A program made the position numbers and the translations under genes. The notes under the pieces were generated by a model that saw nothing but the letters and a program-made list of their open reading frames with translations, was not told the DNA's origin and did no database searches. A DNA stretch of 64,000 nucleotides from Acidobacteriota bacterium (lineage in GTDB: Bacteria > Acidobacteriota > Terriglobia > Terriglobales > SCQP01), in contig SCQP01000016.1 of the NCBI GenBank assembly GCA_004299485.1, positions 124,001 through 188,000 of the forward strand, read 5' to 3'. Below, one piece after another: positions 12,509 through 63,632 of this stretch. How positions within the stretch are numbered: position 1 is the first letter of the stretch; every line of letters starts with the position of its first letter.

Positions 12509-12790
12509 ATGGCTCGAATCGTTCACTGTGTGAAGCTGGGCCGCGACTTGCCCGGCCTCGAAGAACCACCTTGGCCCGGCGATTTAGGCCAGCGCATTTT
12601 CGAAAACGTCTCCGCCGAAGCCTGGGTCCTCTGGAAAGAACACGCCAAGATGGTCATGAACGAATACCGCCTCGCTCCCTGGACCCCCGAGGCCCAAAAA
12701 CTCATTCAGGAACAACTCGAGCAGTTCTTTTTCGGCGAAGGCGCCGCCCTTCCGCCCGGCTTCGTTCCCGTCCCCACCAAAGCCAAGTAG
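12509..12790 (+). CDS. yggX: Fe(2+)-trafficking protein YggX
   Basis: Small cytoplasmic protein (93 residues) linked to iron trafficking and protection of iron-sulphur clusters from oxidation. It starts MARIVHCVKLGRDLPGLEEP, with the conserved Cys7, and has FENVSAEAWVLWKEHAKMVM followed by NEYRL and a C-terminal QEQLEQFFFGEG. The ATG at 12509 is 17 bases from the divergent fmt start. The last 69 bases of the gene, including the stop, are duplicated twice downstream in a 168-base tandem array, so the C-terminus (PPGFVPVPTKAK) sits inside a repeat. Confidence 0.93.
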   Translation: MARIVHCVKLGRDLPGLEEPPWPGDLGQRIFENVSAEAWVLWKEHAKMVMNEYRLAPWTPEAQKLIQEQLEQFFFGEGAALPPGFVPVPTKAK

Positions 12791-13126
12791 CGGAGCTGGG
12801 GCGTGGGGCCCCCGGCGCAGCGGATCTGCGGCCTTGAGGAGCGGGCCGCGCGGCGCAGCCGCGCTGGGCGCCCGCGATCTATCAAAGCCCAGTTCTTCTT
12901 CGGCGAAGGCACCGCCCTTCCGCCCGGCTTCGTCCCCGTCCCCACCAAAGCCAAGTAGCGGAGCTGGGGCGTGGGGCCCCCGGCGCAGCGGATCCGCGGC
13001 CTTGAGGAGCGGGCCGCGCGGCGCAGCCGCGCTGGGCGCCCGCGATCTATCAAAGCCCAGTTTTTCTTCGGCGAAGGCGCCGCCCTCCCCCCCGGCTTCG
13101 TCCCCGTCCCCACCAAAGCCAAATAG
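12722..13126 (+). repeat. 168-base tandem array: three copies of the yggX 3' end
   Basis: The 69-base stretch encoding QFFFGEG-ALPPGFVPVPTKAK plus stop occurs at 12722-12790, 12890-12958 and 13058-13126, a period of exactly 168 bases. Copies are separated by two near-identical 99-base GC-rich spacers (12791-12889 and 12959-13057) holding hairpins such as GCGCGGC-GCA-GCCGCGC. Only the first copy is joined to a full gene; the others lack an N-terminus. Copies differ at a few positions, so the event is not brand new. This array and the 13127-13214 remainder fill the 424-base gap to the next gene. Confidence 0.95.
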
Positions 13127-29314: not shown

Positions 29315-30661
29315 TCACCGGTCGGTATCGGGCCGCCTCGTTTTCTCCAATTCCTCCAGTCGCTCACGGATGCGCTTTTCCCAGCCCTGCTCGCCGGGTT
29401 CATAATAGCGCCGCCCGCGCAGGTTGTCCGGTAGGCATTCCATCGCCGCGACTTTCGCCTCCAGGTCGTGCGCGTACTGGTAGCCGCGGCCGTAGCCCAG
29501 GCCCTTCATCAGCCCCGTCGGCGCGTTGCGCAGATGCAGCGGCACCGGCTCGGCGCGCGTCGCATGCACATCCTCCAGCACCTTGCCGTAGGCGGTGTAG
29601 AGCGCATTCGATTTGGGCGCCAGCGCCAGGTACACGCACGCCTGCGCCAGCGCCATGGCCGCTTCCGGCATCCCCAGCGCCTCGACCGCCGCCCGCGCCG
29701 CCAGCGTCTGCTCCAGTGCGCGCGGATCGGCGAGCCCGATGTCTTCTGACGCCATGCGCACCATCCGCCGCGCCACGTACATCGGGTCCTCGCCGCTCTC
29801 CAGCATCCGCGCCAGCCAGTACAGACTGGCATCGGGATCGCTGTTGCGCACCGACTTGTGCAGCGCCGAAATCAGGTTGAAGTGCTGCTCGCCCGCGGCG
29901 TCGTAGAGCAGCGCCTTGTGCTGCAGCGTCGCATCGAGCAGCTCGGCCGTAATTTCGATCCGCCCCTCGGCATCCGGCGTCGCTCCGCTGGCCGCGACTT
30001 CCAGCAGGTTCAGCGCCACGCGGGCGTCCCCGTTGGCAAACGCCGCCATCCGCCGCAGCTCCGGCTCGCCCACGAGCAACTCGCGCACTTCGCTCCGTTC
30101 CGCCAGCACGCCCCGCTCGCGGTCGCCGATGGCGCGCCGCAGCAGCGCCTCCAGATCGGCATCACCCAGCGCCTCCAGCACATACACCCGCGCCCGCGAC
30201 AGCAGCGCCGAGTTGACCTCAAAGCTCGGATTCTCCGTCGTTGCCCCGATCAGCGTAATCGCCCCGCTCTCGACGTAGGGCAAAAACGCATCCTGCTGCG
30301 CGCGGTTGAAGCGGTGGATTTCATCCACGAACAGAATCGTCCGCTGCCCCGCCGCCTGCGCCCGCTCCGCCGCCGCCATCACCTCCCGGATCTCTTTGAT
30401 CCCGCTGGTCACGGCGCTGAAGGGCACGAACCGCCGCCGCGTCTGCACCGCAATGATTCGCGCCAGCGTCGTCTTGCCCACCCCCGGCGGACCCCAGAGC
30501 AGAATCGATCCCAACTGATCCCGCTCGATCTGCACCCGCAGCGGCTTGCCCGGCCCCAGCAGATGCTGCTGCCCCACCAGTTCCTCCAGCCGCTGCGGCC
30601 GCATCCGGTCCGCCAGCGGCGGCGGGGCCGCCGGTCCGCCTTGTGATTCAAACAACGACAT
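29315..30661 (-). CDS. rarA: Replication-associated recombination protein A (AAA+ ATPase)
   Basis: RarA/MgsA acts at stalled forks with SSB; 448 residues. Walker A is GPPGVGKT (57-64), Walker [11 protein letters not shown] (109-118, Asp113/Glu114), sensor 1 [20 protein letters not shown], and the C-terminal MgsA domain shows [20 protein letters not shown] and [20 protein letters not shown] followed by GYQYAHDLE. The N-terminus [20 protein letters not shown] is standard. Its 3' end runs into the YqeY-like remnant, and its start is 27 bases from the divergent hydrolase gene. Confidence 0.96.
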
Positions 30662-31281
30662 ACATGAGTTCTGCTATGCTGCCCGCTATGAAGCGCATAC
30701 TTTGCCTGGCCGGCCTGCTCGCCGCCCTCGCCTTCACCCTCAGCGCCCAGCAACGCCTCCCGCGCGTCAACTGGCCCACCACCGAGGGCGACTACGTCAT
30801 CCACAATTTCCGCTTCGCCGATAGCGAGGTCCTGCCCTCGCTCCGCCTTCATTACACCACGCTCGGCCATCTCCAGAAGAATGCCGCAGGCGTTGCCACC
30901 AACGCCGTCCTCATCATCCACGGCACCGGCGGCACCGGCCATCAGTTCCTCAGCCCCATCTTCGCCGACCCGCTCTACGGCCCTGGCGAACCGTTGGACA
31001 TCCGCAATCACTACATCATCCTGCCCGACCTCATCGGTCACGGAGAATCCAGCAAGCCCAGCGACGGCCTACGCGCCAAGTTCCCGCATTACGGCTACCA
31101 CGACATGATCCGCGCCACCCATGCCCTGCTCACCCAGCACCTCGGCGTCAACCATTTGCGCCTGGTAATGGGCACCTCCATGGGCGGCATGCAGAGCTGG
31201 ATGTGGCCGGAAATGTACCCCACTTTCATGGATGCCTCCATGCCCTTGGCCAGCGAACCCGCCCAGATCGCCGGCCGCAAT

Positions 31282-31314
31282 CCCCTCCCTGCGTAGCCGC
31301 AGCAGGGAGGGAAG
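31282..31314 (+). repeat. 33-base palindromic insert carrying TAG
   Basis: Exactly 11 codons are inserted in the hydrolase gene. Arms CCCTCCCTG (31283-31291) and CAGGGAGGG (31303-31311) pair perfectly around an 11-base loop; an alternative inner stem CTGCG/CGCAG also exists. The TAG (31294-31296) is in the loop. The same frame continues on both sides. I did not find another copy in the window. Confidence 0.8.
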
Positions 31315-31799
31315 CGCTGGTATCGCCGTATGGTCATGGACTCGATCACGCAGGCCCCCGGCTACGACGGCGGCAACTACGCCGTCGAGCCGCACTTCGA
31401 CGGCGCCTTCTACGCCCTCATGATCATGGTCTCCAGCCCCAAGGACATGCGCCGCCGCATGCCCACCGAGGAGCTCGCCGATCGGGGCTTTACTGCCGCC
31501 ATCGAGCGCTACCGCAAGCGCGAAGACGCCAACAACATGCTGTATCAGTTTGCCGCTTCGAGCGACTACAACCCCGCGCCCGAGCTCGGCAAGATCCAGT
31601 GCTCATTGATCGCGGTCAACTCCGCCGACGATCAGGTCAACCCGCCCGACATCGACACCTTGGTAATGGAGTCGGCCATCAAGCAGGTCAGGCACGGCCA
31701 GTTCATCCTCATCCCCGATGGCCCCGACACCCACGGCCACGGTACCCACACCTACGCCAACGTCTGGAAGAAATTCCTGGTCGAACTATTGCTGGAGAG

Positions 31800-31893
31800 C
31801 GCGGGTCGGGTTGGGGCTCCAGGGGCCCCCAGCCCGGCCGCGCGTCAAGCGGGTCGCGCGGCGCAGCCACGCGGGGCCCCGCGCCAATCAATG
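31800..31893 (+). repeat. Composite GC-rich palindromic element at the hydrolase 3' end
   Basis: Hairpin 1 is of the type GTTGGGG...CCCCAGC (31810-31835); hairpin 2 is GCGCGGC-GCA-GCCACGC (31856-31872), followed by CGCGGGGCCCCGCG (31870-31883) and CCAATCAATGG. The same architecture is seen in the two yggX spacers; single halves occur at 35976-36063 and 63581-63620. Confidence 0.7.
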
Positions 31894-32739
31894 GCCCCGC
31901 ACCCGGCCCGCCTCAAAAAGTAAGATCGCCCCCGCCATCGCCGCGTTGAGCGACTCCACACGGCTGGCGATGGGAATGCTCACCGTCGCATCCGCCGCGC
32001 GCAGCAGCGCCCGCGGCACGCCCGCCGCTTCCTGCCCGATCATCAGGCACACCGGACCCTCGAGGCCGGCTTCGGCAGGCGCCACGCCGCCGCGCGCCCC
32101 GGTTGCCACCAGCCGCACGCCCCGGCTGCGGCACGCCGCGATCAGATCTTCCGCCGTCACCCTCGCCGCAACCGGCAAATGAAACAGCGATCCCGCGCTC
32201 GCCCGCACCGCCTTGGCATTGAACGGACTCACCGTATCCGCCAGTGCCACCACCCCGCTCGCTCCAAACGCGTCCGCCGCCCGGATCAGCGTTCCCAGAT
32301 TGCCGGGATCCTGCAACCCCGCCGCCGCCACGATTAACGCCCGCTCGCCGAATACCGCCTCCAGCTTCGCCGCCGCCCATGCCGCGAGCGCCGCCACGCC
32401 CTGCGGATGCTCCGCATCCATCGCCCCGGCGAATACCGCGTCTTCAGCCACGGCAACCTCGGTGTGTTTGGAAAGTTGCGGCAGCAGCTTCGCGCCCTGC
32501 TGCTCCAGGCCGCGCCGGCTGAACAGCACCTTCTCCAGTTGCACGCCGCTGCGCAGCGCTTCGCCGACCAGTCGCGGCCCCTCCATCGCCAGCGGCGTCT
32601 CCGGCGGTCCCTCGCGAAACGCCCGGCGGAATTCGGTCAGTAGCCCATGATGGCGCCCAATAGGAGTCGGTTCTTGCGGCACCTTCCAATTGTCACAAAA
32701 TCTTGCCACCTCCGCGCGCTGTTCCGTTTGCTGTTCCAT
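31888..32739 (-). CDS. TrmH/SpoU-family RNA 2'-O-methyltransferase
   Basis: SPOUT-class methyltransferase of about 283 residues that methylates a ribose in rRNA or tRNA. An N-terminal substrate-binding part (ETPLAMEGPRLVGEALRSGV, KVLFSRRGLEQQG) is followed by the SPOUT motifs: LQDPGNLGTLIRAADAFGAS (motif 1), GPVCLMIGQEAAGVP (motif 2) and ATVSIPIASRVESLNAAMAG (motif 3). ATG 32739 is chosen tentatively; the frame opens at 32766 and no Shine-Dalgarno decides. The stop overlaps the end of the convergent hydrolase gene. The target nucleotide is unknown. Confidence 0.9.
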   Translation of the reverse strand: MEQQTEQRAEVARFCDNWKVPQEPTPIGRHHGLLTEFRRAFREGPPETPLAMEGPRLVGEALRSGVQLEKVLFSRRGLEQQGAKLLPQLSKHTEVAVAEDAVFAGAMDAEHPQGVAALAAWAAAKLEAVFGERALIVAAAGLQDPGNLGTLIRAADAFGASGVVALADTVSPFNAKAVRASAGSLFHLPVAARVTAEDLIAACRSRGVRLVATGARGGVAPAEAGLEGPVCLMIGQEAAGVPRALLRAADATVSIPIASRVESLNAAMAGAILLFEAGRVRGH

Positions 32740-32843
32740 TCCGTTGCCGCAGTGTCCGCGGCCCACTCAGTCCTGGCGCGGCTTTTCGCGTGCAAATGGC
32801 ACAGTTTGGAAGTTGGATGGAACAGCGCCTGGAACACCGAAAT

Positions 32844-62307: not shown

Positions 62308-63555
62308 ATGCCTTCCTTTTCCGTCCCGCTATCCGGCCTCAACTCCAGCTCGCAGGAGATGACGCTGATCGCCAATAACCTGGCCAACCTGAACACGCCC
62401 GGCTACAAATCGTCGGTCGCTCAGTTCACCACCCTGTTCTATCAGTCATTGGGTGAATCCGGCGATGGCAACCCGATGCAGGTCGGCACCGGCACCGCCA
62501 TCGGCAACGTGACCATGAACCTGACCGACGGCGCCATCCAGTCCACTGGCATTAACTCGAACCTGGCCATTCAGGGTTCGGGCATGTTCGTGGTCAACAA
62601 CAACGGCCAGCAAGTGTACACCCGCGCCGGCGATTTCGTCCTCGGCAACACCGGCTATCTGGAAGCATCCGATGGCAGTCTGGTGCAGGGCTATCCAGCG
62701 GTGAATGGCGTGGTCAACCCCAACGCGCCGCTCGGCAATCTGCTGGTGGGCAGTGGCATTACCAGCCCTGCCCGGGCCACTGCCAATGTCACGATGGGAA
62801 TGAATCTCGATAGCCAGACCGCGGTGGGAGGCACGTTCTCGCAGCCGGTTCAGGTTTACGACTCCCTCGGTGGCACGCACACCCTGACCGCGACGTTTAC
62901 CAAGACCGGCACGAACGCCTGGAGCTATACCGTCACCCTGCCCGGCGCGGATACGGGCGGCGCCACGCCCACCACCATGGCCAGCGGCAATTTGACCTTC
63001 AATACCAGTGGCGACCTGACCGGCGGCACCGGCACGCCCCCGCAGATTACCGTCAACCTCACCTCGCCCGCACTCGCCGATGGCGCGGCGGCGTTCAACA
63101 TCAACTGGAAGCTGTTCGGTCCCCAGGGCAATTCGCTCATCACGCAGGCGGCGGCGGCCTCAGCCCCTCTGGCCTCGCATCAGGATGGTGTGCCCAGCGG
63201 CAGCTTGATCAACTTCAGTATCGGCCCCGACGGCTCCATCACCGGCGCCTTCAGCAACGGGCAATCCCAGACGCTGGGGCAGGTCGTACTCGCAACCTTC
63301 GCCAATGACCAGGGCATCCAGGCGGTTGGCAACAACAATTTCATCGCCACCGCTGCCTCCGGCATCGCCACCATCGGGACACCAGGGTCCGGCAATCGCG
63401 GCTCGGTGCAGGGCAGCTCGATTGAGCAGTCCAACGTGGATATTGCCGGTCAGTTCGCCGAACTGATTCAGGCGCAGCAGAGCTACGAAGCCAGCGCTAA
63501 AGCGGTGACCACCTTCAATCAAGTCACCCAGGCGACGCTCAACATGCAGCAATAA
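62308..63555 (+). CDS. flgE: Flagellar hook protein FlgE
   Basis: Structural protein of the hook, 415 residues. SVPLSGLNSSSQEMTLIANN and LANLNTPGYKSSVAQF are the conserved rod/hook N-terminus; NLAIQGSGMFVVNN followed by YTRAGDFVLGNTGYLEASDG is the first FlgE domain; and SNVDIAGQFAELIQAQQSYE with ASAKAVTTFNQVTQATL the C-terminal helix. AGGAG lies eight bases before the ATG. A Rho-independent terminator follows 77 bases later. Confidence 0.97.
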   Translation: MPSFSVPLSGLNSSSQEMTLIANNLANLNTPGYKSSVAQFTTLFYQSLGESGDGNPMQVGTGTAIGNVTMNLTDGAIQSTGINSNLAIQGSGMFVVNNNGQQVYTRAGDFVLGNTGYLEASDGSLVQGYPAVNGVVNPNAPLGNLLVGSGITSPARATANVTMGMNLDSQTAVGGTFSQPVQVYDSLGGTHTLTATFTKTGTNAWSYTVTLPGADTGGATPTTMASGNLTFNTSGDLTGGTGTPPQITVNLTSPALADGAAAFNINWKLFGPQGNSLITQAAAASAPLASHQDGVPSGSLINFSIGPDGSITGAFSNGQSQTLGQVVLATFANDQGIQAVGNNNFIATAASGIATIGTPGSGNRGSVQGSSIEQSNVDIAGQFAELIQAQQSYEASAKAVTTFNQVTQATLNMQQ

Positions 63556-63580
63556 TGGTCCGATACGCGGGGGAGCCGGT

Positions 63581-63620
63581 GGCGTGGCGCAGCCACGCCA
63601 GGCCCCGCGCCAGTCAATCG
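63581..63620 (+). repeat. GCA-loop hairpin repeat downstream of flgE
   Basis: GGCGTGGC-GCA-GCCACGCC is a perfect 8-base stem with GCA loop, followed by AGGCCCCGCGCCAGTCAATCG. This equals the second half of the composite element at 31800-31893 (GCGCGGC-GCA-GCCACGC ... CCCCGCGCCAATCAATGG). Confidence 0.75.
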
Positions 63621-63632
63621 TTCTTTCCGCCA

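Follow-up and report, generated by a model that had tools for sequence, protein, structure and literature searches.

A MetX-like alpha/beta hydrolase gene of a soil bacterium of the Acidobacteriota carries a 33-nt hairpin-forming insertion that puts a UAG in frame after 202 codons. The insert arose in one event, is absent from orthologues and has a single copy in its genome. We read it as a private and recent insertion into a dispensable gene, most likely leaving a null allele, and put the probability of this reading at about two in three. Positions below refer to the window, that is, the whole stretch of 64,000 nt that was analyzed. Within it the hydrolase gene lies between a divergent rarA/mgsA gene, which serves as a syntenic marker, and a convergent spoU gene (Table 1).

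Table 1. Features at the interrupted hydrolase locus, in window coordinates
Feature	Position	Strand	Remarks
rarA/mgsA AAA+ ATPase	29315..30661	-	divergent neighbor of hydrolase, syntenic marker
ORF1, signal peptide and N-terminal part of MetX-like alpha/beta hydrolase	30688..31296	+	Abhydrolase_1; PRK06489 positions 9-197 of 362
Private 33-nt insert (11 codons)	31282..31314	+	between AGRN and RWYRR; in no orthologue examined
Left hairpin arm	31283..31292	+	CCCTCCCTGC
In-frame TAG	31294..31296	+	inside hairpin loop
Right hairpin arm	31302..31311	+	GCAGGGAGGG
Hydrolase second half	31315..31923	+	same frame as ORF1; PRK06489 positions 200-358 of 362
R1 copy (~98-nt two-hairpin dispersed repeat)	31799..31896	+	hydrolase 3' end
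SpoU-family RNA methyltransferase	31888..32766	-	convergent neighbor of hydrolase

Read from the start of ORF1, the frame runs ...SEPAQIAGRN-PLPA*PQQGGK-RWYRRMVMDSI..., and its two halves match the MetX-like hydrolase family PRK06489 consecutively. ORF1, for which an alternative GTG start at 30643 is also open, ends at the TAG of the insert and contains the nucleophile Ser. The second half, with its first ATG at 31330, holds the catalytic Asp and His; its hydrolase core ends at ~31800, and the remainder belongs to a dispersed repeat that we call R1. In the orthologue alignment all three catalytic residues are retained: Ser in GTSMGG, Asp in NSADDQVNPP and His in GHGTH. These features bear out the original prediction in most respects: a 33-base in-frame palindrome with a stop codon, exactly 11 codons between AGRN and RWYRRM, does split a MetX-like hydrolase whose frame and catalytic residues are intact on both sides. 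The perfect hairpin with TAG in its loop is likewise present, with arms of 10 bp rather than the 9 first described. A predicted structure, tried for placing the insertion site in the hydrolase, was of low confidence (pLDDT 45) and was set aside.

By codon, the insert reads CCC CTC CCT GCG TAG CCG CAG CAG GGA GGG AAG. Its arms pair perfectly around the loop GTAGCCGCA, with an energy of about -22.7 kcal/mol for the hairpin taken alone. Hairpins of this kind were found in 91 of 200,000 random genomic 33-mers and in 41 of 200,000 shuffles of the insert sequence. A hairpin in a 33-mer is thus beyond chance, at about 5 in 10,000, and this rarity in both controls indicates that the insertion and the palindrome are one event. 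Such hairpins occur at ~57 per Mb here, whereas a third-order Markov control yields ~33 per Mb, and meeting one somewhere within 64 kb is not rare. The frame-keeping length of the insert (1/3) and its stop codon (~0.18; an in-frame stop is expected in ~17-18% of such 33-mers) are unremarkable.

The insert is missing from every full-length orthologue that we aligned: relatives from the same order, congener G002 and members from other phyla all join AGRN straight to the next conserved stretch. The insertion is therefore private. In G002 the hydrolase, at 66-70% identity and also adjoining rarA, reads AGRNRYFRRM at this place. The outcome named beforehand as telling against the prediction, orthologues with the same insert encoding unrelated residues and no stop, did not occur. 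The gene itself is dispensable in the genus, judging from the gene content of three other congeners: in G004 spoU and rarA lie ~60 nt apart with no hydrolase in between, in G001 the space between them is taken by unrelated genes, and the 95%-complete genome of G003 yields no hydrolase match.

Both halves of the gene bear the marks of purifying selection, as had been predicted. Against G002, dN/dS is ~0.14 before the insert and ~0.28 after it, rough values given that dS is near 1 or above. When changes were assigned to lineages by the majority of eight outgroups, the window lineage and G002 had 14 and 7, respectively, before the insert and again 14 and 7 after it, so the half beyond the stop is not evolving faster; the small lineage-specific indels in that half are in frame. 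Relaxed constraint after the stop was hinted at by some single-outgroup tests, and the majority-outgroup test speaks against it. The lack of any sign of decay fits a recent event as well as continued function. Because the stop is in frame, recency is the simpler reading, and a recent insertion explains why the post-stop half has not evolved faster.

On this evidence, ribosomes would stop at the UAG in the loop, and the product would keep the nucleophile Ser and lack the acid and the His; a protein truncated in this way would make the allele null or nearly so. The second half would still be intact because the event is recent. It counts against a null allele that two open, in-frame and catalytically complete halves are also to be expected of a working gene, and that the small indels of the second half keep the frame. 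As to its origin, the hairpin may stem from an error in copying, for example a template switch, given that neither a donor nor a family was found. Template switching during replication can produce perfect hairpins in one step (PMC8794818), and the 33-mer resembles such mutations in being a new perfect stem that appeared in one lineage in one step. It differs from them in that no local or distant template for its first arm was found; in the search for a template-switch donor, the best partial matches in the genome (E 0.03) are at background level. The 33-mer has the look of an ordinary recent loss-of-function event, useful chiefly as a clean case of a hairpin newly made in one lineage.

Among the alternatives, the one that survives best, although we consider it unlikely, is a mobile palindromic family, REP- or RPE-like as R1 is, of which the 33-mer would be a decayed or low-copy member. 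Its length and palindrome fall within the 20-40 bp size range of REPs (PMC3733652), and short dispersed repeats of at least two kinds are abundant in the genome, one kind lying in frame inside genes. Searches of its own genome for exact, gapped and mismatched matches, however, returned the 33-mer as a single copy, and the repeated 17-mers in the 848 kb of genome examined for these do not include it. No further copy was found in relatives, nor in GTDB contigs or IMG/VR, two scans that may omit near-identical genomes. Around the insert junctions no match in the genome rose above background, and Rfam gave chance matches only. The R1 covariance model does not match the 33-mer, and its similarity to the two dispersed repeats (the 98-nt R1 and one of ~110 nt) is no better than that of shuffles. 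By the tag criterion that we took from PMC3733652, a terminal GTAG or CGTC beside the stem, the 33-mer carries no REP tag, its GTAG sitting in the loop rather than at a terminus; nor does the genome contain a REP-type Y1 transposase (Y1_Tnp). Of the earlier proposal that a small palindromic mobile element recently killed the gene, the evidence backs the outcome and the recency and lends no support to the mobile element.

We regard it as decidedly unlikely that the insert came from faulty assembly or belongs to a minority strain in a metagenome assembly. Hairpins are hard to sequence, and the nearest named relatives are themselves metagenome-assembled. Sequencing and assembly errors at hairpins, however, mostly delete or fold back existing sequence, which counts against such an error here: the insert keeps the frame, has two clean edges and brings in 33 nt of sequence that is novel, within a 408-kb contig.

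It is very improbable that the hydrolase still works, whether by low-level readthrough of the UAG or by re-initiation of the second half at ATG 31330 with the two fragments associating. A frame and catalytic residues that are intact before and after the insert would fit such a gene, as would the purine run AGGGAGGG upstream of this ATG. Yet the run lies within the stem, ~19 nt from the ATG and too far for a normal Shine-Dalgarno sequence, and the homologue search revealed no two-part orthologue. UAG, moreover, is an ordinary stop in this organism, ending 141 of 439 confidently called genes (32%). Such common use makes general suppression very unlikely, and a scan of 848 kb, a quarter of the genome, showed no UAG suppressor tRNA. 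The readthrough site suggested earlier therefore finds no support.

Programmed bypassing deserves next to no credence. Under this reading ribosomes would hop the 33-nt hairpin and its UAG, in the manner known from T4 gene 60 and from mitochondrial byps, and so make full-length hydrolase from a bacterial chromosomal gene. In its favor, the gap is of the right order of length, and the interruption is a hairpin that contains an in-frame stop, as in T4 gene 60 and the byps of Magnusiomyces (PMC5009743, PMC11194080). In T4 gene 60 the take-off and landing codons are identical, and the stop comes directly after take-off (PMC11194080). Here no pair of identical or synonymous codons would carry ribosomes across the insert and back into frame: AAT precedes the insert and AAG ends it, and the codon ahead of the UAG, GCG, is followed by no in-frame GCN before RWYRR. 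The peptide upstream is the ordinary conserved one of uninterrupted orthologues, with no KKYK-like motif, and the insert does not recur. A review from 2016 describes relaxed codon matching for mitochondria alone and knew of no natural in-frame bypass (PMC5009743); an in-frame bypass here, if true, would be of a kind for which that review had no natural case. The hop-over element of the original prediction is accordingly without support.

The same gene ends in a copy of R1, which the original prediction did not mention. Here R1 has replaced the normal C-terminus of the hydrolase, removing the normal stop (the G002 protein ends ...LLAESAH) and adding a tail of 37 codons; by itself, this tail is no sign of inactivation. 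At its 3' end (TCAATG), R1 provides the TGA stop (31888-31890) of the convergent spoU gene, as has been reported for REP termini elsewhere. When the second half of the hydrolase served as query in a protein search, 46 further sites in the genome matched, mostly to its last 40 residues only; these sites are R1 copies. The consensus structure of R1 has 25 pairs, of which 12 show compensated changes on both sides. With a covariance model, built partly from the window copy (whose BLAST matches are independent of the model), we counted 99 copies in the genome itself, 21-62 per genome in all four congeners, and, for two further genera in the family, 11-45 in some of their genomes; none was found in 17 genomes of the order's other family. 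R1 has no Rfam match and is a previously undescribed repeat. Further copies lie in the window at 63548-63622, 12784-12890 and 12952-13058, and in genome stretches L081, L083, L078, L096, L079, L087 and L140. A 168-bp direct tandem duplication at window positions 12767-13122 contains diverged R1 copies.

We surveyed 848 kb of genome stretches for R1 inside genes. In uvrA and in the phosphopentomutase gene R1 is in frame and adds ~33 residues, with flanks that align to the structures 2r6f (UvrA) and 3m8w, respectively; the UvrA proteins of congeners have a loop at that place, without R1. It is also in frame in a GT87 glycosyltransferase gene, where the domain match spans the repeat, and probably in genes for a GNAT acetyltransferase, a Fic protein and a DoxX-like protein. 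Several other overlaps of R1 with genes are N-terminal, and translation of these genes may in truth begin further downstream. A methylpurine-DNA glycosylase gene of congener G004 is interrupted by two R1 copies in tandem, again in frame. Four of the six reading frames are open in most R1 copies, making tolerance within genes easy.

A second dispersed repeat, of ~110 nt and mostly 93-97% identical among its copies (GTGGCTCGCCAC...CTTCGATTCCCGGCAGGGTCCGCC...GCTGCCGCC), occurs at L079:4301-4410, at L105:11740-11849 and in ~35 other places in the 848 kb. It often begins at or just past a stop codon, and part of it resembles the T arm of a tRNA; the one copy searched against Rfam gave no match. At L068:2091-2321 and L076:215-425, only a few bases separate R1 from this repeat.

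R1 has dispersed copies with conserved hairpins and is inserted in frame in conserved protein genes, and by this behavior it may be grouped with RPE-like in-gene palindromic repeats. In-frame palindromic repeats are known from Rickettsia (PMC10969869). R1 shares with them its palindromic nature, its many copies, its in-frame position in conserved genes in both orientations and the ~33 residues that it adds; it differs in phylum, the likeness being one of behavior. The 33-mer is unlike these elements because it is a single copy and bears a stop. REPs, in turn, are known from several bacteria to lie inside repair genes, uvrA among them (PMC3733652). R1 resembles the GTAG and CGTC REPs in its presence within uvrA and a congener's DNA glycosylase gene and in giving a neighbor its stop codon. 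It differs in being longer, with two unlike hairpins whose stems fall outside the published CGTC families, and no RAYT (Y1) transposase is present in the genome. We considered R1 as a CGTC REP, defined by a CGTC tag, a stem of 8-9 bp starting with A-T pairs and a loop of 4-5 nt (PMC3733652). A CGTC does precede the second hairpin of R1, but its stem is ~13 bp, its loop 3 nt and its basal pairs G-C, and we rejected the assignment. The REP survey describes GTAG and CGTC repeats from other phyla and mentions Acidobacteria for transposases only (PMC3733652).

Of the two elements found in this one gene, R1 matters more than the 33-mer. Palindromic repeats that invade genes in frame are best known from Rickettsia; R1 adds soil Acidobacteriota to their range, at about a hundred copies per genome. 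It does so in genes of repair and metabolism, and in the absence of the Y1 transposase to which REPs are linked. With R1, the spread of such repeats and their tolerance by proteins become open to testing.
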